Positions 35,325-51,613 of a stretch of 64,000 nucleotides of DNA are shown here, in pieces. Under the pieces are notes generated by a model. It had not been told where the DNA came from. It did no database searches and saw only the letters and a program-made list of their open reading frames with translations. Location of the stretch: positions 372,001 through 436,000 of the forward strand of contig NZ_FNVQ01000005.1 of NCBI RefSeq assembly GCF_900108065.1, read 5' to 3'. The position numbers and the translations under genes were made by a program. The stretch comes from Marinobacterium lutimaris. GTDB lineage: Bacteria; Pseudomonadota; Gammaproteobacteria; Pseudomonadales; Balneatricaceae. Each line of letters begins with the position of its first letter. Position 1 is the first letter of the stretch.

Positions 35325-36593
35325 TCAGTGCCGTGTATCGAGGCGCTCGGCTATCAGCGCCTCGAGCCGGTCCAGCGCGCCCTGGTTCTGTTTCAGGAAC
35401 GCCTCACCGGCACGGCCCGCGGCCCTCGCCTGATCCGGCTGATCCAGCCAGGTGCCAAGCTGAGCGGTCAGCCCCTTCTCATCGACCACCTGACTCATAC
35501 CACCAGCGTCCTTTAACGCCTCACAGATCGCCGCGAAGTTGAAGGTATCCGGCCCCATGATAACTGGCAGGCCAAGCGCCGCGGGTTCAAGCGGGTTGTG
35601 TCCGCCGGTGCCGCTGAAACTGCCGCCGACAAAGGCGATATCCGCCGCTGCGTAGAGCATCATCAGCTCGCCCATGGTATCGCCAATATAAATATCGGTC
35701 TGGCTATCGGGCGTCTCACCGCTGGAGCGGGCACAGACATTGTGACTGAACTGACTTGCAAGCTCGGTCACACCGGCAAAGCGCTCCGGATGCCGCGGCA
35801 CCAGCGCCAGCAGCAGATCTGGCTGACGCTCCTTGAGACTACGCCAGCAGCGTAACAGCAGTTCATCCTCTCCCTCATGAGTACTGGCGGCGATCACAAC
35901 GGGCCGTTCTGCTCCCCAGAGTGTTCGCAACGCCCTGCCTGAGTCACGCAACGAGAGATCCGGCGAAATATCAAACTTGATGCTGCCGGTGACGCTGACT
36001 CGCTCCGGCGGCGCTCCAAGTTCGCGGAAGCGGCCAGCGTCCGCCTCATGCTGGGCGGCGATCAGGTTCAGCCGCTGCAACATGGGCCGGGTCAGCGCCG
36101 AAAAGCGACGATAGCCTCTTGCCGAGCGCTCTGACAGACGGGCATTCACCAGCATCACCGGTACACCTTTGCGGGCGCAGCCGGATACCAGGTTGGGCCA
36201 GAGTTCGGTTTCCACCACGATGCAGATTGCCGGCTTCACGCGGCGCAGAAAGGCACTCCAGGCCAGCGGCAGGTCCCAGGGGCAGAAGCGCTGTTCGACC
36301 CGATCGCCAAAGGCTTTCTCCACCTGGGCTGCTCCGGTGGGCGTCATATTGGTCATCAGGATGCGGTGACTGGGATAGCGCTTGAGCAGCCTTTCCACCA
36401 TAGGCACCACCGCAAGGGTCTCACCCACGGAGACCGCATGAATCCAGATCACCGGCCCGCTAAGACGGTCTCCTAATCCCAGCCTTTGCGTCCAGTTTTT
36501 TCGATACCCTGGAGCTTTGCGCCCACGCCACCAAAGACGCGCCAGTAGCAGCGGTATCAGCAGGTAGAAAAGAAGGGTATAGAGTAAACGCAT
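35325..36593 (-). CDS. waaA: 3-deoxy-D-manno-octulosonic acid (Kdo) transferase
   Basis: This 422-residue glycosyltransferase (GT30) adds Kdo from CMP-Kdo to lipid IVA on the cytoplasmic face of the inner membrane. An N-terminal membrane anchor (LLYTLLFYLLIPLLLARLWW) is followed by the RKNWTQRLG motif, IHAVSVGETLA, and the C-terminal GTGGHNPLEPAALGLP. The ATG at 36593 gives the normal length (E. coli 425); the longer ORF upstream has no family match. It is divergent from a sugar-modification trio. Confidence 0.95.
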   Translation of the reverse strand: MRLLYTLLFYLLIPLLLARLWWRGRKAPGYRKNWTQRLGLGDRLSGPVIWIHAVSVGETLAVVPMVERLLKRYPSHRILMTNMTPTGAAQVEKAFGDRVEQRFCPWDLPLAWSAFLRRVKPAICIVVETELWPNLVSGCARKGVPVMLVNARLSERSARGYRRFSALTRPMLQRLNLIAAQHEADAGRFRELGAPPERVSVTGSIKFDISPDLSLRDSGRALRTLWGAERPVVIAASTHEGEDELLLRCWRSLKERQPDLLLALVPRHPERFAGVTELASQFSHNVCARSSGETPDSQTDIYIGDTMGELMMLYAAADIAFVGGSFSGTGGHNPLEPAALGLPVIMGPDTFNFAAICEALKDAGGMSQVVDEKGLTAQLGTWLDQPDQARAAGRAGEAFLKQNQGALDRLEALIAERLDTRH

Positions 36594-36716
36594 CGGCTGG
36601 CACACCACCAAAATTTGAGGCTGAAGTGTAACATGGTCGCTCAGGGCACAGGCGCTGGAATCAACGTGCCGGATCAGCCACAATGGGAACAAAAGCGTGC
36701 GTTATACGGACAGTCT

Positions 36717-37736
36717 ATGCATCACATCGACTTTTCCGCACAGCTCCCGAGGAGTGAGCGACCCAGCGTCACCTGCGTTCTGCCAGCCTACAACGAGGCC
36801 GGCAGCCTGCGCCATCTCATCCCCGAATTAACCGAATACCTGAAAAAGTTCTCCGACCAGATAGAGCTGCTCGTCGTCGATGATGGCAGTCGGGATGACA
36901 CCCTGGCGGTCGTGTCCGCCATGCTGGATCACTACCCTGTCACGCTGCTCCAGCTGTCGCGCAATTTTGGCAAAGAGGCCGCACTGAGTGCGGGTCTCGA
37001 CCATGCAGACGGCGATGTTGTCCTGCTGATGGATTCTGATGGCCAGCACCCTTTCGAAGTAGTGGACCAGTTTTTCCACCACTGGCATGAAGGCTGGGAC
37101 ATGGTTTTTGGCGTGCACGAGAATCGCTCGGACGAGTCCCGCGCCAAACGCTACCTGACCAAACTGTTCTACAGCCTGCTCAGCCGCAGCGCCGAGATCG
37201 AAATGCAGCCGGATGCCGGCGACTTCCGGCTGCTGGACCGACGGGTGGTGCTTGCTCTGCGCCGTTTGCCGGAACGCTCACGAATGATGAAAGGGCTCTA
37301 CTCCTGGGTGGGCTTTTCCAGCAAGGCGGTGCCGTTTCAGCCAATCGGACGGATCACCGGCAGTTCGCATTTTGGTCTGAGTAAACTCTCGGCTCTGGCG
37401 CTGACCGGTTTTACCAGTTTCAGTAACGCGCCGCTGCGAATGTGGATGCTGATTGGTGCTGCCACCTCGGTACTCTCGGTGCTTTACGCCCTGATCATCG
37501 TCATCCGCACACTGATTTTCGGCTCGGACATTCCCGGCTGGCCATCCATCGCAGCCGGCATCGCCTTCCTCGGCGGTATGCAGCTGTTTTCGGTCGGCAT
37601 TCTCGGCGAATATATCGCGCGTATATTCTCCGAGGTGAAAGCCCGCCCGCTCTACCTGGTTAGCAACGAAATATCCTTCCGCAAACAGAGGCGGCCAGAG
37701 CAGCAACCTGCAGGGGAGGAAGCGAATGACGCGTGA
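36717..37736 (+). CDS. Polyprenyl-phosphate glycosyltransferase (GT2, DPM1/ArnC-like)
   Basis: This 339-residue membrane glycosyltransferase has a GT2 domain with VLPAYNEAGSL (about residue 23), VVDDGSRDDT, and the metal-binding DSDGQHP. Next come DAGDFRLLDRR and RSRMMKGLYSWVGF, then two C-terminal membrane helices (about 240-300). This is the layout of enzymes that load a sugar onto undecaprenyl phosphate (ArnC, GtrB, FlmF2, LgmA). The donor sugar is unknown; the neighbouring deacetylase suggests an N-acetylhexosamine. Alternative starts are ATG 36633 and TTG 36615. It overlaps the GtrA gene by 11 bp. Confidence 0.88.
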   Translation: MHHIDFSAQLPRSERPSVTCVLPAYNEAGSLRHLIPELTEYLKKFSDQIELLVVDDGSRDDTLAVVSAMLDHYPVTLLQLSRNFGKEAALSAGLDHADGDVVLLMDSDGQHPFEVVDQFFHHWHEGWDMVFGVHENRSDESRAKRYLTKLFYSLLSRSAEIEMQPDAGDFRLLDRRVVLALRRLPERSRMMKGLYSWVGFSSKAVPFQPIGRITGSSHFGLSKLSALALTGFTSFSNAPLRMWMLIGAATSVLSVLYALIIVIRTLIFGSDIPGWPSIAAGIAFLGGMQLFSVGILGEYIARIFSEVKARPLYLVSNEISFRKQRRPEQQPAGEEANDA

Positions 37737-38097
37737 AGCACTGAGCTTTATAGCCGTCGGCGTTTCCGCACTGCTGATGCATTGGCTGGTGGTGTTCCTG
37801 CTGGTGCCCCTGGCGCACCTGCATCCGCTGATCGCCAATGTGATCGCGTTTCTGCTGGCCTTCAACGTCAGTTACTTCGGTCATCGCCACCTAACCTTTC
37901 GTGCCCAGGAACTCTCTCACCGCCAGACCTTGCCACGCTTCGCCACCGTTGCCGCCACAAGTTTCTTGCTCAATGAAGCGATGTACTGGGCCCTGCTGAG
38001 CCTGACACCGCTGCGCTACGACGTGGCCCTGTTCATCGTGCTGGGCAGCGTTGCCGTACTGACCTACCTGCTGGGCAAATTCTGGGCGTTCGCATGA
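37726..38097 (+). CDS. GtrA-like membrane protein (putative lipid-linked sugar flippase)
   Basis: This 123-residue protein has four predicted helices and matches the GtrA family. Conserved features are an N-terminal FIAVGVSALLMHW helix and NVSYFGHRHLTFRA, which resembles the family's F/W-x-x-R-K-x-x-F loop. GtrA proteins are thought to flip polyprenyl-phosphate sugars to the periplasm. It overlaps the GT2 gene before it and the deacetylase gene after it (4 bp), so the three are co-translated. Confidence 0.87.
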   Translation: MTREALSFIAVGVSALLMHWLVVFLLVPLAHLHPLIANVIAFLLAFNVSYFGHRHLTFRAQELSHRQTLPRFATVAATSFLLNEAMYWALLSLTPLRYDVALFIVLGSVAVLTYLLGKFWAFA

Positions 38098-38882
38098 GCC
38101 GTACTGTAGTTATCTGCGCCGATGACTTCGGCATGTCGGAAGGGATTAACCAAGCGATACTGGAGCTGATCGATCTCGGCCGCCTGTCCGCTACCAGCTG
38201 TATGACCAATATGCTCTGCTGGACACGGGAGGCAGCTGAGCAGTTGCAGGCGCGACGGCATAAGGCCGCGCTGGGGCTGCACTTTAACCTGACCGAAGGC
38301 GTGCACGCCGTTCCGCTGGGAAAATTGATGCTGAAAAGCCTGGTCCGGCAGTTAGACCGACAGGCGCTGCTCAAACAATTCGATGAGCAGCTGGATAGTT
38401 TCGAGGAGCTGATCGGCTCGGCGCCGGATTTTGTCGATGGCCATCAACATATCCAGATGTTTCCGGTTATCCGCGAGCTGCTGCTAGATCGCTTGCAGCA
38501 GCGCTACGGCAAGCAGGCACCCTGGGTTCGCGCATCCACCCCCCGGCTTTCCGGCCACGATTCAGGCTTCAAGGCGATGGTGCTGCGGCTAATCGGGCTG
38601 GGTTTCGAGTCAGCCCGCCGCCGCTTCCACACCAAGGGAAGCGCAGCCTTTGCAGGCCTCTATTCACTGAGCCCAGAGGCGGATTTTGCCGGCATGATGC
38701 AGCTCTGGCTAAACACTGAGCCGGACGGGGTGCTGATAATGTGTCACCCGGGCAAAACTGGGGACGAATCCTCCCTAGCCCGTGCCCGGCGCAGGGAATA
38801 TGAATGGCTTTCGAGTGATCTTTTTATAGAGGCTCTGCGCAATAGTGATCGCTCACTTCATACAGAACCTACCTTTTCCTGA
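38094..38882 (+). CDS. YdjC/ChbG-family sugar deacetylase (NaxD-like)
   Basis: This 262-residue protein belongs to the YdjC superfamily of carbohydrate deacetylases. Metal and catalytic positions are visible: DD at residues 10-11 (CADDFGMSEG), His63 in LGLHFNLTEG, and His117/His119 in DGHQHIQMF. Family members include ChbG and NaxD/LgmC, which deacetylate undecaprenyl-linked GalNAc or GlcNAc during lipid A modification. The operon with a GT2 transferase and GtrA protein, and the convergent ArnT-like gene, favour the NaxD role over chitooligosaccharide breakdown. Confidence 0.85.
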   Translation: MSRTVVICADDFGMSEGINQAILELIDLGRLSATSCMTNMLCWTREAAEQLQARRHKAALGLHFNLTEGVHAVPLGKLMLKSLVRQLDRQALLKQFDEQLDSFEELIGSAPDFVDGHQHIQMFPVIRELLLDRLQQRYGKQAPWVRASTPRLSGHDSGFKAMVLRLIGLGFESARRRFHTKGSAAFAGLYSLSPEADFAGMMQLWLNTEPDGVLIMCHPGKTGDESSLARARRREYEWLSSDLFIEALRNSDRSLHTEPTFS

Positions 38883-38887
38883 AGCGA

Positions 38888-40348
38888 TTAGTCCACACAC
38901 TCTGTGTGCGGCAACCAGAGACGCCAGGATAGCGTCAGCGGCTCATGGTCGGGCAGACGCGGCCAAGGCACGCTGAACTGTCCCTCGGCATCCCAGTCGC
39001 CTAGTTCTGCCAGCGTTTTATCCCAGCGGGGGCGGTCGCCCTCCGCAATCTCGATCATCCCCTGCTCTGCGACCCACCGGACATCAGCCCAGGGCGCCAG
39101 CCTGAGATCGGACTCGGGCACCGCCGATACGCCAGGCAACTCCAGCGCTAGCAGCTCCGCCGGCCAGTACTGTCCGGCCACAAGCTGAAGCGGGCACTCC
39201 GTATGCTCTCCCCAGACTTGCGACAGAGTCTGCGCCAGGGCCTCATCGGGCCAACCGGTGCGGGAAGGCTTATCGCGGATCTGATCCTTAAAACCGACGA
39301 ACAGCAGCATCAGCACAGTCAGCAGCAGCAGGAAACCACCAAAGGCCCATAGCAGCGGTCGCTGGCGCTGCCTTAGAACCTCGGCCGGGATCATCGACGC
39401 CAGCATCAGCCCGGACAGATTCCACATCGGCGTGCCCCACATATCCCGGGTACCCGCTCCGGTAATCATGGCGCCAATCACGGTAAGCAGTGCGGGAGCC
39501 AGCCCCATAAACAGGATAAACCCGGCGTTCGAATCGGGCTTTTGCCAATAGCTGCGCCGCCAGAAGCCGGCAACCAGCAGTAGAATAAACAGCGGTAAAT
39601 GGTCGATCAGTTGTACCAGCAGGAAGCGTAACGCCCCCCAAGCGGACCAGCCCTGTTCAACAGCCCTGGCAGAGCGGCCCTCAAAATAGGAGAACGGCAG
39701 AAACTCATGCTGCATCAACCAGAACAGATGCGGCAGAAACAACAATACCATGGCCAGAACCCCAACCCACGGCTGGGGACGCAGCAGCTCCTTGCGCAGT
39801 TCCGGCCGCCAGAGCAGCCACAGGAACATCGCCGCCAGCAGCACCAGCGTCGAGTACTTGGTTAACAGGCCAAGTCCCGCCACCAGGCCCAGCAGCAGCC
39901 AGTCGCCATAGCGCCAGTCGGTAATAGCACGGTGGAACAGCAGCACTGCCGCTGCCCAGAGCGGCATCTGCGCGATGTTGTGATTGAACTCCATGCTGGG
40001 CCAGGTGAAGTAGTAAACGCCCATCAGCGCCAATACCCCAAAGGCTGACTGCTCGCAGCTCAATAGCCGGCAGCCAATCCGCCAGACACAGTACAATGTC
40101 AGAGCGATACAGAGCTGGCTGAGAATGAAGGGGCCCATGTCCCCTAAGGTGGAATAGAAGAGATGAAGTACCCAGGCCGGAAACGGCGGGTGCTTGTAAT
40201 AGCCCCACTGCCATTCCCTTCCCCAGTAGGCCCCCTCAACAACGTCGAGAGGCAGGCTTTCGACCAATAGGCCAGGCAGTAGCCCCCAGATCAGCAGCTG
40301 CGCGAGGAGCAGATACACCACCCCCTTAAACGCGGCATTCTGCGGCAC
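38888..40348 (-). CDS. ArnT/PMT-like integral-membrane glycosyltransferase (GT-C)
   Basis: This 486-residue protein has about ten membrane helices and a C-terminal soluble part. The catalytic loop after helix 1 reads SLPLDVVEGAYWGREWQWGY, with the acidic residue and the following KHPPF typical of ArnT and PMT-type transferases that use polyprenyl-phosphate sugars. Such enzymes act in the periplasm on lipid A, LPS core or protein. It lies 3 bp behind msbA on the same strand and converges on the deacetylase gene, which points to lipid A or LPS as acceptor. Confidence 0.88.
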   Translation of the reverse strand: MPQNAAFKGVVYLLLAQLLIWGLLPGLLVESLPLDVVEGAYWGREWQWGYYKHPPFPAWVLHLFYSTLGDMGPFILSQLCIALTLYCVWRIGCRLLSCEQSAFGVLALMGVYYFTWPSMEFNHNIAQMPLWAAAVLLFHRAITDWRYGDWLLLGLVAGLGLLTKYSTLVLLAAMFLWLLWRPELRKELLRPQPWVGVLAMVLLFLPHLFWLMQHEFLPFSYFEGRSARAVEQGWSAWGALRFLLVQLIDHLPLFILLLVAGFWRRSYWQKPDSNAGFILFMGLAPALLTVIGAMITGAGTRDMWGTPMWNLSGLMLASMIPAEVLRQRQRPLLWAFGGFLLLLTVLMLLFVGFKDQIRDKPSRTGWPDEALAQTLSQVWGEHTECPLQLVAGQYWPAELLALELPGVSAVPESDLRLAPWADVRWVAEQGMIEIAEGDRPRWDKTLAELGDWDAEGQFSVPWPRLPDHEPLTLSWRLWLPHTECVD

Positions 40349-40351
40349 GGC

Positions 40352-42127
40352 TCAGGCCCCTCCGGCCTCCTGCTGAACGCGGAAGCTGGCATAGGCGCCC
40401 TCTTTTGCCAGCAACTCCTGGTGGGAGCCTTTTTCAATGATCTCGCCATCGTCCATGACAACAATCATGTCCGCTTTCTCAATTGTAGAAAGTCGGTGAG
40501 CGATCACTAACGTTGTACGACCTTTGACAACAGACTCCAGTGCCGCCTGGATATGCCGTTCAGACTCGGTATCGAGCGCCGATGTGGCCTCATCGAGTAT
40601 CAGCAGCGGTGCATCCTTGAGAATGGCACGGGCAATCGCGATACGCTGACGCTGACCACCTGAGAGCATCACGCCATCTTCGCCGATCATCGTATCCAGT
40701 CCATTTTCCAGCCGGTCCAGAAACTCGGTGACATGAGCAGCTTCTGCTGCCGCCATGATCGCCTCACGACTGGCCCCGGCCATTGCCCCGTAGGCGATGT
40801 TATCGGCCAGAGTACCGTTGAACAGCACCACATGCTGGTTGACCAGGGCGATCTGTTCACGCAGGGAGAGCAACGAATAGTCGTTCAGGGAGACCCCATC
40901 GAGCAAAATATTGCCTTCCCAGCCATCATTGAAACGCGGCAGCATCGCCGCCAGGGTCGACTTGCCACTGCCGGAACGCCCCACCAGCGCCACCGTTGAG
41001 CCGGAGGGAATATCCAGGGAGATACCCTTCAACGCAGGTGTGTCCTGCCCTGGGTAAGTAAAACGCACCTGTTCAAAGCGAAGATCACCGCTAACACCCT
41101 TGGCGTTGCGCTCACCGGAGTCACGCTCGGCGGGCTGATCCATCACGTCAAAGATCGATTCTGCCGCAGCCACACCCTTCTGGATGATCGAGCTGATCTC
41201 GGTTAACTGGCGCAGCGGCTTGGTGATAAGCCCGGCCGCGGTCAAAAAGGCCACAAAACCGCCCGTGGTCATGGTGCCCATCACCGACGGATGCATGGCG
41301 ATAAACAGCAGCCCCGCCAGAGCCATGGCGATAATGAACTGTACTATTGGCGTGTTCAGCGACTGGGTGACCACCATCTTCATCATCTGACGTCGATTAT
41401 TGTCGCTGGCCTTGTGGAATCGCTGCCGCTCCTGCTGCGTTCCACCAAAGATTCGTACCACCTGGTAACCCTTGATCGACTCGGAAGCCGAGCTGGTGAT
41501 ATCTCCCACCGATTTCTGCAGACGACGGCTGAGCATCCGCATCCGCTTTGAAGCAATGGTGACGACAATGCCGATAAACGGCGCCGCCAGCACGAACACC
41601 AGGGTCAGTTTCCAGTTGAGATAGAGCAGGTATCCCATCAGGCCGACCACGGTCAGGCCCTCACGCAGACCGGTTTTGATGGCATTGGTGACCGCCCCTG
41701 TCACCTGCTCCACGTTATAGGTCAGCTTGGCCAGCAGCTCGCCGCTGGCGGTGCGCTGATAGTAACTGCTTGGCAGCGTCAGCATCCGGTCGAACAGGTC
41801 GGTGCGCAGGGCATGAACCACCTGACGCGCCACATGACTGATCGTATAGGTTCCGATGAAAGTGCCTATACCGCGCAGCGCGAAGATCACCAGCACGGTC
41901 AGAGCCAGCATACCGCGCTGATCGAGTTCCCCCGCCTGCACCGCATTGACCACCTGTTCCAGCCAGCGCGCGGACCAGGCCTGAGTCGCACCATAGATCG
42001 CGAAACCGATAAAACTGGCAACAAATGCTACCCAGTATGGCCGGGCATAGCCGAGCAGGCGCTTATACAACTGCCAGGTGCTATGAACGGCGCCCTCCTG
42101 ATTCTGACTGCTCGTTTTACTACTCAT
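40352..42127 (-). CDS. msbA: Lipid A export ABC transporter MsbA
   Basis: This 591-residue half transporter flips lipid A-core across the inner membrane. A six-helix domain is followed by an ATPase with Walker A GRSGSGKSTLAAM (about residue 385), signature LSGGQRQRIAIARA and Walker B LLILDEATSALD. The ATG at 42127 (MSSKTSSQNQEG) gives the normal family length; the longer ORF adds 27 unlikely residues. It is the first gene of a two-gene unit with the ArnT-like transferase and is divergent from the acyltransferase gene. Confidence 0.95.
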   Translation of the reverse strand: MSSKTSSQNQEGAVHSTWQLYKRLLGYARPYWVAFVASFIGFAIYGATQAWSARWLEQVVNAVQAGELDQRGMLALTVLVIFALRGIGTFIGTYTISHVARQVVHALRTDLFDRMLTLPSSYYQRTASGELLAKLTYNVEQVTGAVTNAIKTGLREGLTVVGLMGYLLYLNWKLTLVFVLAAPFIGIVVTIASKRMRMLSRRLQKSVGDITSSASESIKGYQVVRIFGGTQQERQRFHKASDNNRRQMMKMVVTQSLNTPIVQFIIAMALAGLLFIAMHPSVMGTMTTGGFVAFLTAAGLITKPLRQLTEISSIIQKGVAAAESIFDVMDQPAERDSGERNAKGVSGDLRFEQVRFTYPGQDTPALKGISLDIPSGSTVALVGRSGSGKSTLAAMLPRFNDGWEGNILLDGVSLNDYSLLSLREQIALVNQHVVLFNGTLADNIAYGAMAGASREAIMAAAEAAHVTEFLDRLENGLDTMIGEDGVMLSGGQRQRIAIARAILKDAPLLILDEATSALDTESERHIQAALESVVKGRTTLVIAHRLSTIEKADMIVVMDDGEIIEKGSHQELLAKEGAYASFRVQQEAGGA

Positions 42128-42291
42128 AAGCCTCTCAATCGATACTCTCGGCAAGCGGGCAACATTATACACAGCTGGCACTGGCGGCGCTGTGAGGAGA
42201 TCCGCCACGCCCGACCGGCCCCAAATCCCGAATCATTTGCCGCCTACAGGAGCGCGACTTAGAATAGCCGCGAACCCTGGGGACAGATTTC

Positions 42292-43227
42292 ATGGCACGC
42301 GAAAAACGACAGAGATTCCAGAACAGGCCGTTCTGGCACCCAATCTTCTGGCCCAACTGGCTCAGCACCGGAGCACTGTGGGTACTTAACCGACTTCCCT
42401 ATCGAGCCCAGCTGGGCCTTGGTAAGTTGCTTGGTCTCGCCCTTTTCCGACTGGTTCCTGCGCGACGCCAGGTTGTCGAGGTTAACGCAAGATTGTGCTT
42501 CCCGGAACTGACAGAGCAGGAACGGAAGCGTTTTGTACGTGACGTTTTTATCAATAACGGTATCGGTGTTTTCGAAACATCCATGGCCTGGTGGACGCCT
42601 CGCAGGCATTTTGAGAACAGGGTCGAGCTCAAAGGGCGCGAATACCTGGACCAGGCACTGGAGCAGGGCAAGGGTATACTCCTGCTGGGTGCGCATTTTT
42701 CGACGCTGGACCTCGGAGGACTGCTGTTCTCTGAGTTCTATCCCGTTGATGCCATGTATCGCAGGCACAACAACCCGCTGATGGAAGAGATTATCAAAAA
42801 AGGCCGTAGCCGCTACTTCGGTCAATCCATCGAGCGAGCTGACATCCGTTCGGTGATTCGCGCACTGCGTAAAAATCACATCATCTGGTATGCACCCGAT
42901 CAGGACTTTGGCTCCAAGCAATCGGTGTTCGTGCCTTTCTTCGGTGTTAATGCCGCCACAATTACGGCGACGGCCCGTCTGGCCAAGCTCAACGGCTCAC
43001 CGGTGATGATGCTGGCCCAGCATCGTCTGCCAGATGGTCGTTATGAGCTGGAGCTCTTTCCGCCCATCACGGGCTTCCCGACCGGCAACGAAGAAACCGA
43101 CGCATCACTGGTCAACGCGGAGATTGAGCGCGCCATCCGCAAAGACCCGACACAGTACATGTGGGTACATCGACGCTTCAAAACCCAGCCTGATGGTAAA
43201 AACCGTCTCTACAGCCAGAAGCCATGA
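42292..43227 (+). CDS. Lipid A biosynthesis acyltransferase (LpxL/HtrB family)
   Basis: This 311-residue membrane-associated enzyme transfers a secondary acyl chain to lipid A. The catalytic HX4D motif is His135 to Asp140 in GAHFSTLD, with the conserved MYRRHNNPLMEE and WYAPDQDFG segments downstream. An N-terminal hydrophobic region (about 40-56) anchors it. The gene could be lpxL or a paralogue; acyl chain choice cannot be read from sequence. It overlaps the next gene by 4 bp. Confidence 0.92.
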   Translation: MAREKRQRFQNRPFWHPIFWPNWLSTGALWVLNRLPYRAQLGLGKLLGLALFRLVPARRQVVEVNARLCFPELTEQERKRFVRDVFINNGIGVFETSMAWWTPRRHFENRVELKGREYLDQALEQGKGILLLGAHFSTLDLGGLLFSEFYPVDAMYRRHNNPLMEEIIKKGRSRYFGQSIERADIRSVIRALRKNHIIWYAPDQDFGSKQSVFVPFFGVNAATITATARLAKLNGSPVMMLAQHRLPDGRYELELFPPITGFPTGNEETDASLVNAEIERAIRKDPTQYMWVHRRFKTQPDGKNRLYSQKP

Positions 43228-44138
43228 CTGAATCAGCTAACAACCACGCCACGCCCGGACCTTTAAAGCCGTTTCTGAGAGGCGTGCTGCGCAAATCAGC
43301 CCTTATTCTGGCGCCTTTCGGCATAACCCGTAACGGAAGAGCACGCGTCCGGGAATTCTTCGACGACCGGATCATCAGCCTCTACCGGGACGATATAGAG
43401 TCGTTTATTCGCCGCTACCCGAAAGTCTGGAGCGAAGAGGAAACAATTCAGTACATCATCGACCACAAAGCAAGTATATGCAGGTATGGGGATGGTGAAC
43501 TTAAACTGATTGTAGGTGAGCGTCACAAGTCATTTCAGGATGTGAATCCTGCGCTGAATAATCGGCTGCTTGAAGTATTGCACAGCGATGACCCCAACAT
43601 ACTGATCGGAGTTCACCCGGTAAGGAATTTTCACGCTCTGGGTAGAATCTGGCAAAAATTCATCATCCGTATAGGCGATGAAGTACTTGGCCTTTTGGAT
43701 TTGCAACGCGAGTATCCCTCGATGGGAGCCTTCCGCGTATTGCCCAGGGATAGCAAAGAATCCCTCATAAAGCGTGTGCGGCTGATTAAAGAGATCTGGG
43801 AAGGCCGGAATGTGGTGCTGGTAACGGGAAAAAACAGTCGTTTCACATTCGAAGAAGAGCTCTTTAATAACGCGGCCTCTGTCGAGTTCTTTTACGCCCC
43901 GTCAAAAAACGCATTCGACCGCTATGAAGAGATACTGAGCGACATCCAGAAGAAGTACCCCAAAGAGAACTACCTGATACTCCCAGTACTAGGCCCTACC
44001 GCTACCATCCTGGCCTATGACCTGGCCAAAGCAGGATATCAGGCGATCGATTTTGGTCAGATGCCCGGCACCTTCAAAAAAGCCAAGCAGCACCTTTACG
44101 GCAACGAAGAGGCTAAAATCGAAGAGCTTTTAAGATAA
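43224..44138 (+). CDS. GT-D fold glycosyltransferase (DUF1792-type)
   Basis: This 304-residue protein shows SICRYGDGELKLI near residue 85-97, giving the DxE metal motif (Asp90, Glu92) of the GT-D fold. NVVLVTGKNSRF near residue 198 and LILPVLGPTATILAYDLAKAGYQAIDFG near the end are also typical. GT-D enzymes were first described in serine-rich protein glycosylation and occur in many capsule and LPS loci. Translational coupling to an LpxL-type gene is unusual and suggests that it acts on lipid A or inner core. The sugar and acceptor are unknown. Confidence 0.78.
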   Translation: MTESANNHATPGPLKPFLRGVLRKSALILAPFGITRNGRARVREFFDDRIISLYRDDIESFIRRYPKVWSEEETIQYIIDHKASICRYGDGELKLIVGERHKSFQDVNPALNNRLLEVLHSDDPNILIGVHPVRNFHALGRIWQKFIIRIGDEVLGLLDLQREYPSMGAFRVLPRDSKESLIKRVRLIKEIWEGRNVVLVTGKNSRFTFEEELFNNAASVEFFYAPSKNAFDRYEEILSDIQKKYPKENYLILPVLGPTATILAYDLAKAGYQAIDFGQMPGTFKKAKQHLYGNEEAKIEELLR

Positions 44139-45397: not shown

Positions 45398-46408
45398 TCA
45401 ATCGCCGCGTTCCCAGGCTTCGACCCAGCACTTGTTGATAGGTTTAAATTCTTTATTTTTCCATTCACCGACGCTCTCTAAAGATAAGTCACTACATTTA
45501 ATATCCATGGCAGCTCTTTTCGATACCATGTGATCTACCAATGGTACCGTAAGGCTATTGTATTCAGTTTTGTCGGGTCGAATCACTATAGTTGGAAGAC
45601 GCACATTAATCGCTTCGGAGATCATTGACGCACTGTCATGGGTTACGAAAACCTCACAGGCGCCAGTCAAACAATCGAAGACAGTTTTTCGATCACCATC
45701 ACCCCAACAAACAAAGCATTCACAGGCATTTTTATCAATCTGGCTCTTCAATATTTTTTCGGCATCAATCCCCGTTCTGGGTGATGTCGAAACAACCCAT
45801 TTAATGCCAGTAATATCGCTATAATTATTCACAAAGTTAGATATTTTTACCCAGTCATCACTTTGATAGTGGTAACCTTTAGCATCTCCTCCGAGAAGCA
45901 ATAGCGCATACCTGGAACCCTGAAAAACCTCCGATCTTTCTCTGTACTCAGCATAAGACTTCTCCGTTGGCAACATATCGAGCATGACGGTTGCTGAAGC
46001 ACAAGGGGTCGATGGAGTCGATATTAGTTCACCAAATCTTTCAGATTTAACTCTTTTTGGCGATCCAATATAAAATAATTTTGCTTTACTTCCTGCAGCA
46101 AGCAATAACGCAACATATTCAAAAGGAGGTGTTTTAAGAACGATCACATCCGAGTCATTCACTACAGGAATATGACCGCGCATCGCTATCCTTTTTAGAA
46201 ATTTTGCGATATGACTATCTGCTCCGAATAGGCCAATAAGAAAAATAAAAAGCTCATAAAAAGGAAAAAACAACTTCGCTCGAGTTCTTAGATCAACCTT
46301 AAGAGCTGAAGTTTCATGCTCAGGAAAGATATGCTCAGCAACGCTACCGAGCTGCTTATTACTTCCATGATATTGAGAGCACAAATAGTAAGCTTTAGGA
46401 GTTATCAT
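45398..46408 (-). CDS. ELM1-like (DUF1022) protein in the LPS locus, copy 1
   Basis: This protein of about 336 residues is distantly like the mitochondrial-fission ELM1 / DUF1022 family. LLLGGDAKGYHYQSDDW in the middle and VTHDSASMISEAINVRLPTIVI near the C-terminus correspond to the family's two nucleotide-sugar-like sites. Bacterial members occur in LPS and capsule loci and look like GT-B fold glycosyltransferases. The gene is A/T-rich like its downstream neighbour, 57 bp away, so the two probably arrived together. ATG 46408 was chosen over a TTG at 46420. Confidence 0.68.
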   Translation of the reverse strand: MITPKAYYLCSQYHGSNKQLGSVAEHIFPEHETSALKVDLRTRAKLFFPFYELFIFLIGLFGADSHIAKFLKRIAMRGHIPVVNDSDVIVLKTPPFEYVALLLAAGSKAKLFYIGSPKRVKSERFGELISTPSTPCASATVMLDMLPTEKSYAEYRERSEVFQGSRYALLLLGGDAKGYHYQSDDWVKISNFVNNYSDITGIKWVVSTSPRTGIDAEKILKSQIDKNACECFVCWGDGDRKTVFDCLTGACEVFVTHDSASMISEAINVRLPTIVIRPDKTEYNSLTVPLVDHMVSKRAAMDIKCSDLSLESVGEWKNKEFKPINKCWVEAWERGD

Positions 46409-46477
46409 TTCACAATTCAATTACAAGAAAACTGTATTGATGTACCATACGAAACATCAGGCTTTCGTAGGATGATC

Positions 46478-47681: not shown

Positions 47682-48728
47682 ATGCGAGTACTTCATATTG
47701 CCTACCAACAACTGCGTCGTTACGGCCACACCCGCGTCAGCTGGGCACAGAAGCTGACCTTCGGCCTGATCAAGAACGATCACCTGGTGCATGGATTCAG
47801 CGATCGTGACGTAGCGGCTTTTGAGGCCCCGCTGGGGATCCGCGACCTGGGCACAAAGAAGGCCAACAAGCGCCTGCTGGAAACCGTTGAGTCCTTCGAG
47901 CCGGATCTGGTGATCGCCGGCCACTGCGACATGATCAGCAACGAAACCCTGGCCGAGATCCGCAAAATCGCGCCTAACTGCGTCATCGCACACTGCAACA
48001 ACGACCCGCTATTCGTGCCCTCTAACGTGGACCGCCTCAAGTACCGGGCCGAAGTCGCTGACGCCATTTTCGTATCCACCGGTCGTCGCGAACTGACCCA
48101 GTTCGAGGGCTCCCGGGCCCGGGTTTACCATATGCCCAACCCGGTTGAGCCCTCAGTGGAGAGCTTCGACAACTCGGTCAAAGCCGACTCGGAACTGCCG
48201 ATCGACCTGATTTTCTGCAGTAACAGCCAGAACTTCACCAAGCGCCTGGAGATGATCGGGCGCATGAAGGAGCAGCTGGACCCGATCATGACGTTCAAGA
48301 CCTTCGGCAGCTTCGGCGAAGCGCCGGTCTGGGGACGCGACTATGACCGCGCGCTGGAGAAGAGCAAGATGGGCCTGAACTTCAACCGTCAGGAAGGCGA
48401 TTACTGGTACGCCTCGGCCCGCATGGCTCAGCTGGGCGGTAACGGAATCCTCCAGTTCACCCACTCGGCGAATAAATTCGATGAACTGTTCCCGGCCGAA
48501 TCGATTGTCTATTTCGACGACGAAGCCTCGTTGATGGAGCGGATCCGTGAGTTCCAGGGCGATGACGCCAAGCGTCAGGCCTGGGCCTCGAAAGCACGTG
48601 AGTTTTTCCACCAGGAGATCAACTCAACCCTTTACGCCCAGTACATCGTCGAAGCCACCACCCAGACCCCGTTCAGCCACGACTACGTCTGGGCACGGGA
48701 CATCAATCTGGATGGCAGCCTGAAATGA
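47682..48728 (+). CDS. Glycosyltransferase, CgeB-like GT-B type
   Basis: This 348-residue protein shows a GT-B outline: LEPDLV-type segment FEPDLVIAGHCDMISNE (about residue 78), then a donor domain with IFCSNSQNFTKRLEMIGRM and a late GLNFNRQEGDYWYASARMAQLGGNG. That last segment resembles the Glyco_trans_1_2/CgeB family, where a conserved R/E pair holds the donor. It starts 73 bp after the GT4 gene and overlaps the kinase-like gene by 4 bp. Sugar specificity is unknown. Confidence 0.75.
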   Translation: MRVLHIAYQQLRRYGHTRVSWAQKLTFGLIKNDHLVHGFSDRDVAAFEAPLGIRDLGTKKANKRLLETVESFEPDLVIAGHCDMISNETLAEIRKIAPNCVIAHCNNDPLFVPSNVDRLKYRAEVADAIFVSTGRRELTQFEGSRARVYHMPNPVEPSVESFDNSVKADSELPIDLIFCSNSQNFTKRLEMIGRMKEQLDPIMTFKTFGSFGEAPVWGRDYDRALEKSKMGLNFNRQEGDYWYASARMAQLGGNGILQFTHSANKFDELFPAESIVYFDDEASLMERIREFQGDDAKRQAWASKAREFFHQEINSTLYAQYIVEATTQTPFSHDYVWARDINLDGSLK

Positions 48729-49417
48729 CGCTCAAGCTACAAACAGAGCAGGCCTTTGCCCAGGGTGGCAACCGGCTCTGTTTCGAGTACCCGGGGGATC
48801 CATCGCGTTGCATCAAGGTACGCCGGCCTGACTTTACGCTGGCGGATCTGCGGCGCAAAAAAGGCTTCCCGAAAACCCTGCTGCCACTGAGTGCGTTTGA
48901 CGATAACCAGGAAGAGTTCGATGTTATCTCCGGCCTCGCCAAACGCCAGGGCGAAGCGGTATTTGACGTGATCAGCCGCTGTTATGGCTTTGAAGAGAGC
49001 GATCTTGGACCGGGGCTGGTGCTGGAACTGGTGCGCGACGGAGATGGCCGCATCTCCCAGTCATTGAAAGCGCAGATCTGGTTTGAGGGCTACAGCGACG
49101 AATGCCGCGCCGCCGTTGAGGCCTTTTGCCAGCGCTGGCTGAAACTAAAAATTCCGTCCCGCGACCTGCTGCTACACAACATCCTGGTGCAGAAAGACAG
49201 CAACGGAAAAATAGAGCGACTGGTAGTGATCGATGGCCTCGGCAGCCCGAATATCATTCCGTTCAACTGGCTGCCCGGCACCCTGAAACATGCCAAGGTA
49301 GAACGCAAGGTGGCCAACCTGTATCAGCGTATAAACGACCTGCTGGCTAAAAAGGAACGCGGCGCTTCGCCCGGCAACCATGGCATGGCCACTGCTCATC
49401 ATTCCGCGAACAACTGA
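48725..49417 (+). CDS. YrbL-like kinase-fold protein
   Basis: This 230-residue protein belongs to the YrbL (PhoP network) family with a protein-kinase-like fold. CIKVRRPDF provides the nucleotide-side lysine (about residue 31). DLLLHNILVQKD (about residue 145) stands for the catalytic loop and VVIDGLGSPN for the metal-binding DG. Placed inside a core-LPS cluster and coupled to a glycosyltransferase, it may be a core sugar kinase, in analogy to WaaP. This is inference; YrbL itself has no proven substrate. Confidence 0.82.
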   Translation: MTLKLQTEQAFAQGGNRLCFEYPGDPSRCIKVRRPDFTLADLRRKKGFPKTLLPLSAFDDNQEEFDVISGLAKRQGEAVFDVISRCYGFEESDLGPGLVLELVRDGDGRISQSLKAQIWFEGYSDECRAAVEAFCQRWLKLKIPSRDLLLHNILVQKDSNGKIERLVVIDGLGSPNIIPFNWLPGTLKHAKVERKVANLYQRINDLLAKKERGASPGNHGMATAHHSANN

Positions 49418-49436: not shown

Positions 49437-50489
49437 ATGACCAATTCTACGATCCGCACCGCTCAGGTTCTCGCCGGCGCCGAAAATGGCGGCGCTGAGA
49501 ACTTTTTCGTGCGCCTGGTGACCGGCATGCACGAACACCCGGATATGCAGGTCAAAGCCTTTATCCGTGACCATGAGCATAGGGTCAACGCCCTGCGCCA
49601 GGGCGGCGTCGAGACCGAGGGGTTCAGGTTCGGCTCCCCCGTAGACCTGATCGACCGCCATCGTTTTCGCAAAGCGCTGAACGCCTTCGAGCCCGACGTG
49701 GTTATGTCCTGGATGGGCCGCGCCACCGCGTACACACCAAACTCCAAGCGTTACACCCTGGTCAGCCGCCTGGGCCACTACTACAAGCTCAAGTACTACC
49801 AGCACTGCGATTACTGGGTCGGTAACAGTAAAGGGATCTGCCAGCACATGATCGATGGCGGCTTCCCGGCCGAGCGCGTGGTGCATATCTCCAACTTTGC
49901 CGACGAAACCCCCGTCACGCCGATTCCACGCGACAGCTTCGATACCCCTGCCGACAAACCGATCATCCTCAGCGCCGGCCGGTTGCACGTTAACAAGGCG
50001 TTCGATGTGCTGCTGCACAGCCTTACCGAACTGCCGGATGTGACGCTCTGGCTGGCCGGTGCGGGTCCGGAAGAAGCGAATCTCAAGGCGCTGTGCAAAC
50101 AGCTGGGGCTGGAGTCGCGGGTGCGTTTTCTCGGCTGGCGTACCGATGTCACCACCCTGATGGCCAGCGTCGATCTGTTCGTCTGCCCGTCACGTCACGA
50201 GGGACTGGGTTCAATCGTGCTGGAATCCTGGGCGCACCGCTGCCCCATCGTCGCCACAGACTCGCAAGGACCGGGCGAGTTGATCACCGACGGGCTGAGC
50301 GGCCTGATCACGCCAATTGATGAAGCCCCGGCGCTGGCCAAGGCGATCGACCGGGTGCTGAAAAGCGATGATCTGCGCCAGCAACTGATCGAAGACGCCA
50401 GCCGGGTGTACGCCGAAGGCCACAGCAAAGCGTACATCGTCCAACGCTATGCAGAGTTCTACGAGGAGATACGCCACAAACGCGGCTAA
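49437..50489 (+). CDS. Family 4 glycosyltransferase
   Basis: This 350-residue GT-B protein has the acceptor-side loop LAGAENGGAENFFVRLV near residue 13. The donor domain has SAGRLHVNKAFDVLL (about residue 180), FLGWRTDV, and the EX7E motif EGLGSIVLE (about residue 260). It belongs with WaaG-like core glycosyltransferases. It follows the kinase-like gene by 19 bp and converges with the ELM1 gene, overlapping it by 4 bp. Confidence 0.9.
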   Translation: MTNSTIRTAQVLAGAENGGAENFFVRLVTGMHEHPDMQVKAFIRDHEHRVNALRQGGVETEGFRFGSPVDLIDRHRFRKALNAFEPDVVMSWMGRATAYTPNSKRYTLVSRLGHYYKLKYYQHCDYWVGNSKGICQHMIDGGFPAERVVHISNFADETPVTPIPRDSFDTPADKPIILSAGRLHVNKAFDVLLHSLTELPDVTLWLAGAGPEEANLKALCKQLGLESRVRFLGWRTDVTTLMASVDLFVCPSRHEGLGSIVLESWAHRCPIVATDSQGPGELITDGLSGLITPIDEAPALAKAIDRVLKSDDLRQQLIEDASRVYAEGHSKAYIVQRYAEFYEEIRHKRG

Positions 50490-51382
50490 GCCTGGGCTCC
50501 AAACAGGCCGCGCGCCATTAACTCACGGGCGCAGCGGCCCGCCTCATCCAGAGGCTCTGCATCCGGCTGCAGCGCTTCACCGCGCCATTGCTCCAGCGGC
50601 ACCACACGCTTAGCATCAACCAACTGCTGCAGCCCGGCCTGCAGCCGGTTCTGCTTCAGTTGCGGCACCGGCAGAACACCGACCGCGCACCCTGCGCTCA
50701 GCGCTTCATAGACCATCGATACGCTGTCGGCGCTGACCCAGCAGCACTCCGTTACCGCCAGTTGTTGCGGCAGCCAGCCGGAAGGGGTTTGTGCCGCCGG
50801 AACAAATTCCAGCCCGCTAAGGTGCGCAAGTTTCACCTCGGTTTCGGCGGGGGTGCGGCGCGAGCTGGTGGCGCGCCAGCTGCGACCATCCTCAGACACT
50901 ATCCGTTCGATCGCCCGGATCAGACCCGTCTCATCCCAGCCGCTGTGTTTGGAGGGACCGCCCACCAGGATCATGCCGCTGTCCGGCGTTTTCTCACCCG
51001 GTCGCATCCGGTTCAATGCACCGCGGGTGGCAACCACATTGCCCTGCGACGGCGGGCTGTCGTGCTCTGGAATCAGGCAAAGATCAAACAGCGACAGCGG
51101 CAGGCTGGGCTTCATCAGCACCACCGCCGGCACACGCCAGCCACGTTTCAGCGCCAACAGCGTCAGGTGCGTTGCGTGGCCTGCACCAATCAGCAGATCC
51201 GGCTTGGCTATCTGTGCGGACGACCGACCCAGCAGCAGCTCTTTAAGGGCGACACCCCGAGTAAACGGCGGCAGAGTCTCAATTTCGACCTCAGGTAGCA
51301 GGCGCTGCAACGCCTCGGCCAGACCCTGCGATTGGTTGAGATGGCCCGGCTTGCCGTCACTGACAATAACAATTCGCTTCAC
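50486..51382 (-). CDS. ELM1-family (DUF1022) protein, copy 2
   Basis: This 298-residue protein is a clear member of the bacterial ELM1/DUF1022 family: IVIVSDGKPGHLNQSQGLAE at the start, LIGAGHATHL near residue 78, a VGGPSKHSGWD loop and VSADSVSMVYEALSAGCAVG near residue 215. The family is GT-B-like and found in LPS and capsule loci. GTG 51382 puts the start at the domain edge; ATG 51439 and TTG 51448 are alternatives. It is convergent with the preceding glycosyltransferase and divergent from ilvE. Confidence 0.85.
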   Translation of the reverse strand: MKRIVIVSDGKPGHLNQSQGLAEALQRLLPEVEIETLPPFTRGVALKELLLGRSSAQIAKPDLLIGAGHATHLTLLALKRGWRVPAVVLMKPSLPLSLFDLCLIPEHDSPPSQGNVVATRGALNRMRPGEKTPDSGMILVGGPSKHSGWDETGLIRAIERIVSEDGRSWRATSSRRTPAETEVKLAHLSGLEFVPAAQTPSGWLPQQLAVTECCWVSADSVSMVYEALSAGCAVGVLPVPQLKQNRLQAGLQQLVDAKRVVPLEQWRGEALQPDAEPLDEAGRCARELMARGLFGAQA

Positions 51383-51613
51383 GGTCGCTCTCGCGTTGAT
51401 GGCTTGGGTGTTATTCCGTCCCGAAGAGGACGCGATCATGATAAACAAATCAACCTGAGCAGGATAATCCGGCTAAAAGCAGGATTTCACTGTTGAGGCA
51501 ATTCCATTTTTCGCGTGAAAGCATACAATCTACAATCTTGCGTAAAAGTCCCGGTGCTTTATCAGCATTTCTGGGGCACTTTCCTGTTTACCCGGTCTTT
51601 AGGATGGTCTGAT

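Follow-up and report, generated by a model that had tools for sequence, protein, structure and literature searches.

A candidate amino-sugar decoration system for lipid A-proximal lipopolysaccharide in the msbA-waaA gap of Marinobacterium and its relatives

What is the product of four genes inserted between msbA and waaA, i.e., between the gene of the lipid A-core flippase and that of the 3-deoxy-D-manno-octulosonic acid (Kdo) transferase? The question is raised by a locus of Marinobacterium lutimaris, located in a stretch of 64,000 nucleotides (assembly GCF_900108065.1, contig NZ_FNVQ01000005.1, positions 372,001 to 436,000 of the forward strand) that was analysed as a whole and is hereafter called the window; the genome counts 5.57 Mb in 21 contigs and is 99.4% complete. 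The four genes, called here the cassette, encode a GT2 sugar transferase, a GtrA-type membrane protein, a YdjC-family deacetylase and an ArnT-like GT-C glycosyltransferase. We propose, with a probability of about two in three, that they make up a complete system which, in the periplasm, decorates the lipid A-proximal part of the lipopolysaccharide (LPS) with an amino sugar. This system is of a known kind; new are the GT-C, which belongs to another subfamily, the defined slot between msbA and waaA, and the existence of one relative with other donor genes.

The cassette and its context genes are arranged as follows (positions in the window):

36717..37736, plus strand: GT2 polyprenyl-phosphate sugar transferase of the GtrB/ArnC class (PF00535, E 2e-26)
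37726..38097, plus strand: small membrane protein of GtrA type, putative flippase for the charged carrier (PF04138, E 4e-25)
38094..38882, plus strand: YdjC-family deacetylase (PF04794, E 7e-49, 167.5 bits vs a cut-off of 29.7)
38888..40348, minus strand: ArnT-like GT-C glycosyltransferase of a distinct subfamily (PMT_2 PF13231, E 5e-30)
40352..42208, minus strand: msbA, lipid A-core flippase, context gene (TIGR02203, 744 bits vs a cut-off of 602)
35325..36593, minus strand: waaA, Kdo transferase, context gene, start revised (NF004388, 533.5 bits vs a cut-off of 438)
42292..43227, plus strand: lpxL/htrB, lipid A acyltransferase, context gene (TIGR02207, 336 bits vs a cut-off of 298)

An earlier note on this DNA had described overlapping GT2, GtrA and YdjC genes facing a convergent ArnT-like GT-C gene, with msbA and waaA on either side; both the coordinates and the Pfam and NCBIfam models agree with this layout. 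Indeed, all four cassette proteins pass the curated Pfam cut-offs, while MsbA, WaaA and LpxL pass those of NCBIfam. The GT2 and GtrA genes overlap by 11 nt and the GtrA and YdjC genes by 4 nt; the YdjC and GT-C genes converge with 5 nt between them, and the GT-C start lies 3 nt from the end of msbA. The NF004388 match starts at residue 34 of the longest waaA open reading frame (ORF), and the gene probably starts at 36593 (MRLLYTLL...). With this revised start, about 120 bp separate the divergent starts of waaA and of the GT2 gene.

From these families, we propose the following course of events. The GT2 would load an N-acetylhexosamine (HexNAc) from a uridine diphosphate (UDP)-sugar onto undecaprenyl phosphate (Und-P); the YdjC protein would deacetylate the Und-P-sugar on the cytoplasmic face; GtrA would flip the Und-P-hexosamine; and the GT-C, acting in the periplasm, would pass the hexosamine on to lipid A-core that has just been flipped. 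As acceptor, a lipid A phosphate would be the first choice and Kdo or the inner core the second. All the catalytic steps, the hexosamine identity, the exact acceptor and the effect on charge and antimicrobial peptides are predictions. The enzyme classes and the order of steps assigned by the earlier note (Und-P charging, deacetylation, flipping, transfer) are nevertheless supported at the level of sequence. Polymyxin tolerance is a possible outcome. The genome also encodes an EptA-family protein, hence the cassette would not be the sole route to a more cationic lipid A.

The last step would fall to the GT-C. An AF2 model of this protein, built from 45 sequences (pLDDT 93.7, pTM 0.92), finds as its best fold matches in the Protein Data Bank (PDB) the ArnT of Cupriavidus metallidurans, with and without Und-P (E 2.9e-8 and 3.0e-7; TM 0.63 and 0.62). 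ArnT (5f15) ranks first, with TM scores of 0.63/0.58, and is followed by ALG12 and ALG9, while the protein O-mannosyltransferase Pmt1-Pmt2 (6p25) comes at rank 17 (E 2.2e-3, TM 0.33). The earlier note had held that a grouping with the protein O-mannosyltransferases would speak against its interpretation; by fold, the GT-C of the model does not group with them. The protein O-mannosyltransferase reading that the PMT name of PF13231 could evoke is thereby ruled out, this name being only a family label. A profile-profile comparison with 16 ArnT-like proteins points in the same direction as the fold (probability 96.8%, E 2.4e-10, 196 columns). A sequence search of the PDB with the single GT-C or with a 20-member profile gave no relative, the one listed match (E 2.8) being due to chance. 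The invariant residues of the subfamily include W21, D35, E38, Y50, P54, W150, K164, Y165 and W304, and its motif, LDVxEGxxWGxEWQxGYxKHPP, is unlike that of ArnT. The curated ArnT hidden Markov model (HMM) NF009784 matches only one of 20 subfamily members, at 8e-7; this model is strict, since 75 of the 143 genomes of the class match it at 0.001 and none exceeds its cut-off. Thus, the GT-C has an ArnT-like fold, yet HMM and motif set it apart from ArnT as a subfamily of its own; an identity as ArnT proper is ruled out by the curated HMM.

How stable is the association of the GT-C with lipid A genes? We sampled 99 genomes of the family Nitrincolaceae, taking as strong a GT-C match at E 2e-118 or better and a YdjC match at E 5e-37 or better. 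A strong GT-C ortholog is present in 16 genomes (any match at 0.001 in 37), a strong YdjC in 16 (any match in 24), and both together in 15. The two genomes that break the pairing are G598, with a YdjC and no GT-C found (it is 84% complete and the contig concerned ends in waaA), and M. sediminicola (G037), with a GT-C and no YdjC in its genome; eight further genomes have no GT-C match and a YdjC that is long and divergent. In 16/16 strong holders, the GT-C gene stands beside msbA and/or waaA or lpxL, msbA being the neighbour in 15, so that the lipid A gene context noticed earlier is retained throughout the family holders. In the Nitrincola group, waaA is mostly turned and the GT2-GtrA-YdjC trio lies on its far side. 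The reverse situation is found in relatives without a strong GT-C ortholog, which we queried by WaaA: msbA and waaA are adjacent on the same strand in 10/15, overlapping or within about 20 bp of each other by ORF ends, with less certainty for L355 and L356. Of the other five, four show waaA and no msbA in the 1.5 kb displayed, and one has no waaA match. The cassette thus occupies a defined slot between msbA and waaA. Placed on the WaaA tree, the presence of the cassette and the empty slot each require 5 changes, of which starred branches force at least 3; hence gain, loss or transfer occurred more than once. In three loci (L169, L132 and L172), msbA, waaA and the GT2 gene, respectively, are split over two open frames, probably through sequencing errors or decay.

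The amino-sugar part of our proposal depends on the deacetylase and on the enzyme that would feed it. The YdjC protein belongs to the YdjC/ChbG family, as it exceeds the Pfam cut-off and carries the motif residues. Residues D10, D11, H63, D115, H117, H119 and H218 are invariant in 11/11 aligned YdjC proteins, and some of them are presumably the metal ligands. Its N-terminal half (residues 1-129) aligns, as a partial match, with the chitooligosaccharide deacetylase 7vi8. The equivalog model of chitin disaccharide deacetylase is not reached (68.5 vs 227 bits). The protein would remove the N-acetyl group from Und-P-HexNAc. The long divergent YdjC domains mentioned above (L110-L117, from eight genomes that all belong to genus g5) are encoded by open frames of 360-559 aa, with no GT-C match and with Asn-type GT2s elsewhere; they are possibly fused or different enzymes.

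The GT2 has as best solved relatives the GtrB sll0501 (E 7e-84, residues 18-317) and ArnC (E 2e-38), and it is 38% identical to E. coli YfdH and 31% to ArnC. It would charge Und-P, with UDP-HexNAc as the predicted donor. A tree was made from 50 GT2s (matches at E <1e-70, 250-450 aa, 15 loci of Snodgrassella/Psychrobacter type and most duplicate family loci being excluded). In this tree, the 37 GT2s with a YdjC nearby fall on one side of a branch (support 99), and 0/500 shuffles are as clustered. Position 111 of the signature D-x-D-x-Q-H/D-P is His in 37/37 YdjC-linked GT2s and Asp in the 12/12 others, with Asn in ArnC; the window GT2 reads DSDGQHP, with H111, and falls in the YdjC-linked clade. 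We also searched YdjC phylum-wide, 57/398 genomes giving a match, and read 20 loci picked blind to their GT2 (20 of the 57 matched genomes, mostly from the top of the list, one of them, L304, repeating L170): all have a His GT2 beside YdjC. In the combined set, His is found in 57/57 YdjC-linked rows vs 0/13 others, with a branch support of 84. A family-wide GT2 search, of which 30 of 35 matches were read, sets a limit to this correspondence. The 16 GT2s from strong-YdjC genomes have His, and the other 14 have Asp (5), Asn (8) or His (1). This last one (L337, in G551) stands with a GtrA in a genome without YdjC or GT-C match and points either to the loss of a deacetylase or to a HexNAc system that does without deacetylation. 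The eight Asn GT2s belong to the eight genomes whose YdjC is long and divergent, and lie on other contigs or far away from it. A perfect rule linking His to YdjC is ruled out by these two sets of cases. The His signature is a clade mark, whose cases are not independent; for annotators, it offers a first guess, not a rule, on which enzymes work with a deacetylase.

Can the same GT-C be served by other donor genes? In M. sediminicola, msbA, the GT-C gene, gtrA, gtrB and waaA form a single run on one strand, overlapping or touching each other. The GT2 of this run shares 66% identity with E. coli YfdH, with which it forms a group of support 100, and the GtrA of the run shares 50% with E. coli YfdG. 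The donor sugar may well be glucose instead of an amino sugar, because E. coli YfdH is annotated as a bactoprenol glucosyl transferase of the cryptic prophage CPS-53. The GT-C, for its part, falls inside the Marinobacterium GT-C clade (support 99), its identity to the neighbouring members reaching 78%. The most economical reading is an inherited GT-C with replaced donor genes. Tentatively, and with somewhat less than even confidence, we extend this reading: the msbA-waaA gap of Nitrincolaceae would be a modular decoration slot, in which donor-charging genes are exchangeable beside one conserved ArnT-like GT-C. GT2(His)-GtrA-YdjC would there provide a cationic amino sugar and the prophage-like GtrA-GtrB of M. 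sediminicola a neutral glucose, for the same acceptor and with a GT-C tolerating either, while His vs Asp in the GT2 signature DxDxQ(H/D) would mark, and perhaps set, the choice between N-acetylhexosamine and hexose. If so, species could switch the charge of their LPS by exchanging donor genes, and the M. sediminicola arrangement would be a natural experiment on the sugar selectivity of an ArnT-like transferase.

A somewhat unlikely alternative is that this arrangement is no working sugar swap, the GtrA/GtrB pair serving another transferase or the GT-C being idle or altered. The E. coli relatives of the pair, encoded in a cryptic prophage, have an annotation of O-antigen-type glucosylation, which is compatible with the alternative, but the five genes of M. 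sediminicola touch or overlap in one run. The state of the GT-C can be read both ways. Six Marinobacterium cassette holders agree at 266 positions; the M. sediminicola GT-C differs at 18 of these, 9 of them in the C-terminal residues 442-479 (a count made without control), and these differences could represent a C-terminal adaptation or decay. By contrast, it differs at only 2 of the 120 positions at which the 15 other GT-Cs compared from the family agree; when other members were left out in turn as a control, thirteen of them gave 0 to 2 differences and two gave 7 and 8.

Beyond the family, the gene set recurs. We considered 66 named loci outside Nitrincolaceae, drawn from the best 80 of 302 confirmed GT-C relatives; among these 80, the nearest named GT-C is that of Marinobacterium mangrovicola, 76% identical. 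A plasmid search returned 10 records, all with <60% identity and <40% coverage. Within 6 kb of the GT-C gene, GT2, GtrA and YdjC are all present in 33/66 loci and some of them in 9, knowing that in high-GC loci some partners may be missed by the ORF rule. The 33 full sets belong to Psychrobacter, Snodgrassella and other Neisseriaceae, and Comamonadaceae, and have the order GT-C, GT2, GtrA, YdjC on one strand. The GtrA-like flippase, which the earlier note took for a possible difference from the described systems, is therefore a usual component of this gene set, and we rejected it as a distinguishing feature; it is also present in L306 and L310 (group f153). There, the gene after YdjC encodes an ArnT-type GT-C (NF009784, E 3e-50 and 1e-53, both below cut-off), and GtrA and GT2 are encoded on the other strand. 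At least two kinds of GT-C thus occur together with the donor set. As for lipid A genes outside the family, an LpxL homolog lies within 10 kb of the GT-C gene in 14/66 loci, 11 of which are Psychrobacter. Seen from the Psychrobacter loci (L185-L236), this LpxL-like acyltransferase (E 3e-22 to 4e-27) is present in 11/15, some of the other four being short-flanked. In Desulfatitalea alkaliphila (L232, 8073-13455), msbA, the GT-C gene, a weakly matching GT2 and an LpxL homolog form one run, and in G251 (L150) msbA is directly beside the GT-C gene.

Several observations weigh against an amino-sugar system aimed at lipid A, and we bring them together here. Outside the family, 24/66 named loci show no GT2, GtrA or YdjC within 6 kb of the GT-C gene. 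The linkage to lipid A genes is largely the synteny of one family, because only 3/66 of these loci (Magnetococcales L205, Pontiellaceae L226 and Desulfatitalea L232) have a strong MsbA, and 1/66 has WaaA, at a distance of up to 10 kb from the GT-C gene. Within the family, the GT-C holders do not form one clade on the WaaA tree. In M. mangrovicola, no msbA stands between lpxL and the GT-C gene (L118, 6988-9770, and L158), and the best MsbA homolog elsewhere in the genome is 45% identical to that of the window, which suggests that msbA, an essential gene, was replaced. In four family genomes (L133-L136), the GT-C is a more distant relative, located away from msbA and without YdjC; three of these genomes carry GtrA and an Asp-type GT2 beside it and the fourth an Asp-type GT2 on another contig, an arrangement similar to that of Sedimenticola (L228). 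The GT-C subfamily thus pairs with both donor types and is therefore not tied to amino sugars. Finally, the ArnT HMM leaves the window GT-C unmatched at E 0.1 and has no match anywhere in the window genome at E 0.001. Nor are all the ArnT site residues kept, which, as listed in excerpts of PMC8306577 in Cupriavidus numbering, are Asp55/Arg58, Glu84/Lys85 and Asp158/Lys203. In a profile alignment read by eye, approximate because of gaps in the loop, E38 and K164 are kept in kind for Asp55 and Lys203, and Y41, K52, H53 and Q127 stand at Arg58, Glu84, Lys85 and Asp158. This mapping was taken from the hhalign output via the E. coli counterparts, with our own E. coli-to-Cupriavidus mapping, and Arg270 and Tyr345 fall outside the alignment. 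The acceptor may therefore differ from that of ArnT. The earlier description of the GT-C as ArnT-like thus holds for the fold, in which ArnT comes first and well ahead of the protein O-mannosyltransferases, and is qualified by the ArnT HMM and the site residues.

These residues bear on a first rival explanation, in which the same enzymes and donor would modify Kdo or a sugar of the inner core instead of a lipid A phosphate. The loss of several ArnT site residues would suit such an acceptor, as would the position of waaA, which adjoins the cassette, and the core-type glycosyltransferase genes and Wzy_C ligase-like gene that follow from 43224. But the nearest solved fold is that of ArnT, which acts on lipid A phosphate, and the gene adjoining the GT-C gene in 15/16 family holders is msbA, not a core gene; we thus judge an inner-core acceptor unlikely. 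We hold as quite improbable a second rival, with a phospholipid, an O-polysaccharide or a protein as target and an LPS gene neighbourhood that is incidental. The loci without partners outside the family argue for an incidental neighbourhood, against which stands the msbA/waaA/lpxL synteny within the family. A phospholipid target has a precedent in the glucosaminyl-phosphatidylglycerol (GlcN-PG) of Pseudomonas aeruginosa, made by gpgSDF (PMC12713373, in excerpt), whose GT4, COG3233 and YbhN families are not those of the window cassette. An O-polysaccharide would be in line with GtrA/GtrB three-component systems, which classically modify O-antigen (PMC11127046, in excerpt). As to a protein target, the fold search ranks ArnT over both protein O-mannosyltransferases and oligosaccharyltransferases. 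A decoration of lipid A-proximal LPS with an amino sugar thus remains our preferred explanation. If it is correct, cationic-sugar LPS decoration, so far studied in a few pathogens, would also occur in Marinobacterium and Nitrincola and in other carriers of the gene set, namely Snodgrassella, Psychrobacter and Comamonadaceae.

The region downstream, from 43224, contains core-LPS-like genes, i.e., a GT-D, a Wzy_C ligase-like protein slightly below its cut-off, three other glycosyltransferases and two ELM1-family proteins. The GT-D fold glycosyltransferase (43224-44138, SP_1767 type, below the NCBIfam cut-off) overlaps lpxL by 4 nt and adjoins it in M. mangrovicola too. The ELM1 proteins, of the mitochondrial fission ELM1 family (PF06258), are encoded at 45398-46420 and 50486-51448, and a YrbL-PhoP_reg protein at 48725-49417, all within this LPS core gene region. 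Around the cassette (36400-42400), a promoter scan gave 1 site vs 2.2 expected, and terminator-like sites number 9 vs 4.8 expected.

To which known system is the cassette closest? With the GtrABC three-component systems, it shares a GtrA (PF04138), a GtrB-class GT2 and a GT-C; it differs from them by the added deacetylase and by its GT2, which lies in a different branch from E. coli YfdH, and no BLASTP match was listed between the window GT-C and E. coli YfdI. With the ArnT/ArnC/ArnEF system, which adds 4-amino-4-deoxy-L-arabinose (Ara4N) to lipid A, it shares the ArnT fold of the GT-C and an ArnC-class GT2, but there is no Ara4N-pathway gene among its four genes, and GtrA and YdjC have no significant BLASTP match to ArnE, ArnF or ArnD. 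The gpgSDF operon offers a likeness of principle, as an N-acetyl sugar is added and then deacetylated with a predicted flippase at hand. In the excerpts of PMC12713373, a GT4 glycosyltransferase and a COG3233 deacetylase stand in operon with a predicted YbhN-type flippase. The families are GT2, YdjC and GtrA in the window and the gpgSDF target is a phospholipid; an identity of the two systems is thus ruled out. A literature search, which covered few subscription papers, returned no description of a YdjC with GtrA or of the window arrangement.

The closest likeness is with the systems that add a hexosamine to lipid A. Francisella FlmF2-NaxD-FlmK places galactosamine on a lipid A phosphate; FlmK is the GT-C, and NaxD is reportedly the deacetylase. 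An Und-P-sugar synthase and a glycosyltransferase acting on lipid A are described for Francisella in excerpts of PMC8306577 and PMC4688374, and these two roles are shared, by description, with the window. The Bordetella Lgm system (lgmABCD) places glucosamine on lipid A phosphates. There, lgmA, lgmB and lgmC are needed for glucosamine on lipid A, the fourth gene, lgmD, being non-essential (PMC4993483, in excerpt), and LgmB is named an ArnT ortholog in a title cited by PMC8306577. The arrangement of L306 and L310 resembles the published description of Bordetella Lgm; compared with the same description, the window differs by a GT-C that is not of ArnT type and by the location of its genes between msbA and waaA. 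The roles of the Lgm/Flm-type systems, i.e., an Und-P-sugar synthase, a YdjC-type deacetylase and an ArnT-like GT-C, are thus present in the cassette, with a flippase candidate in addition.

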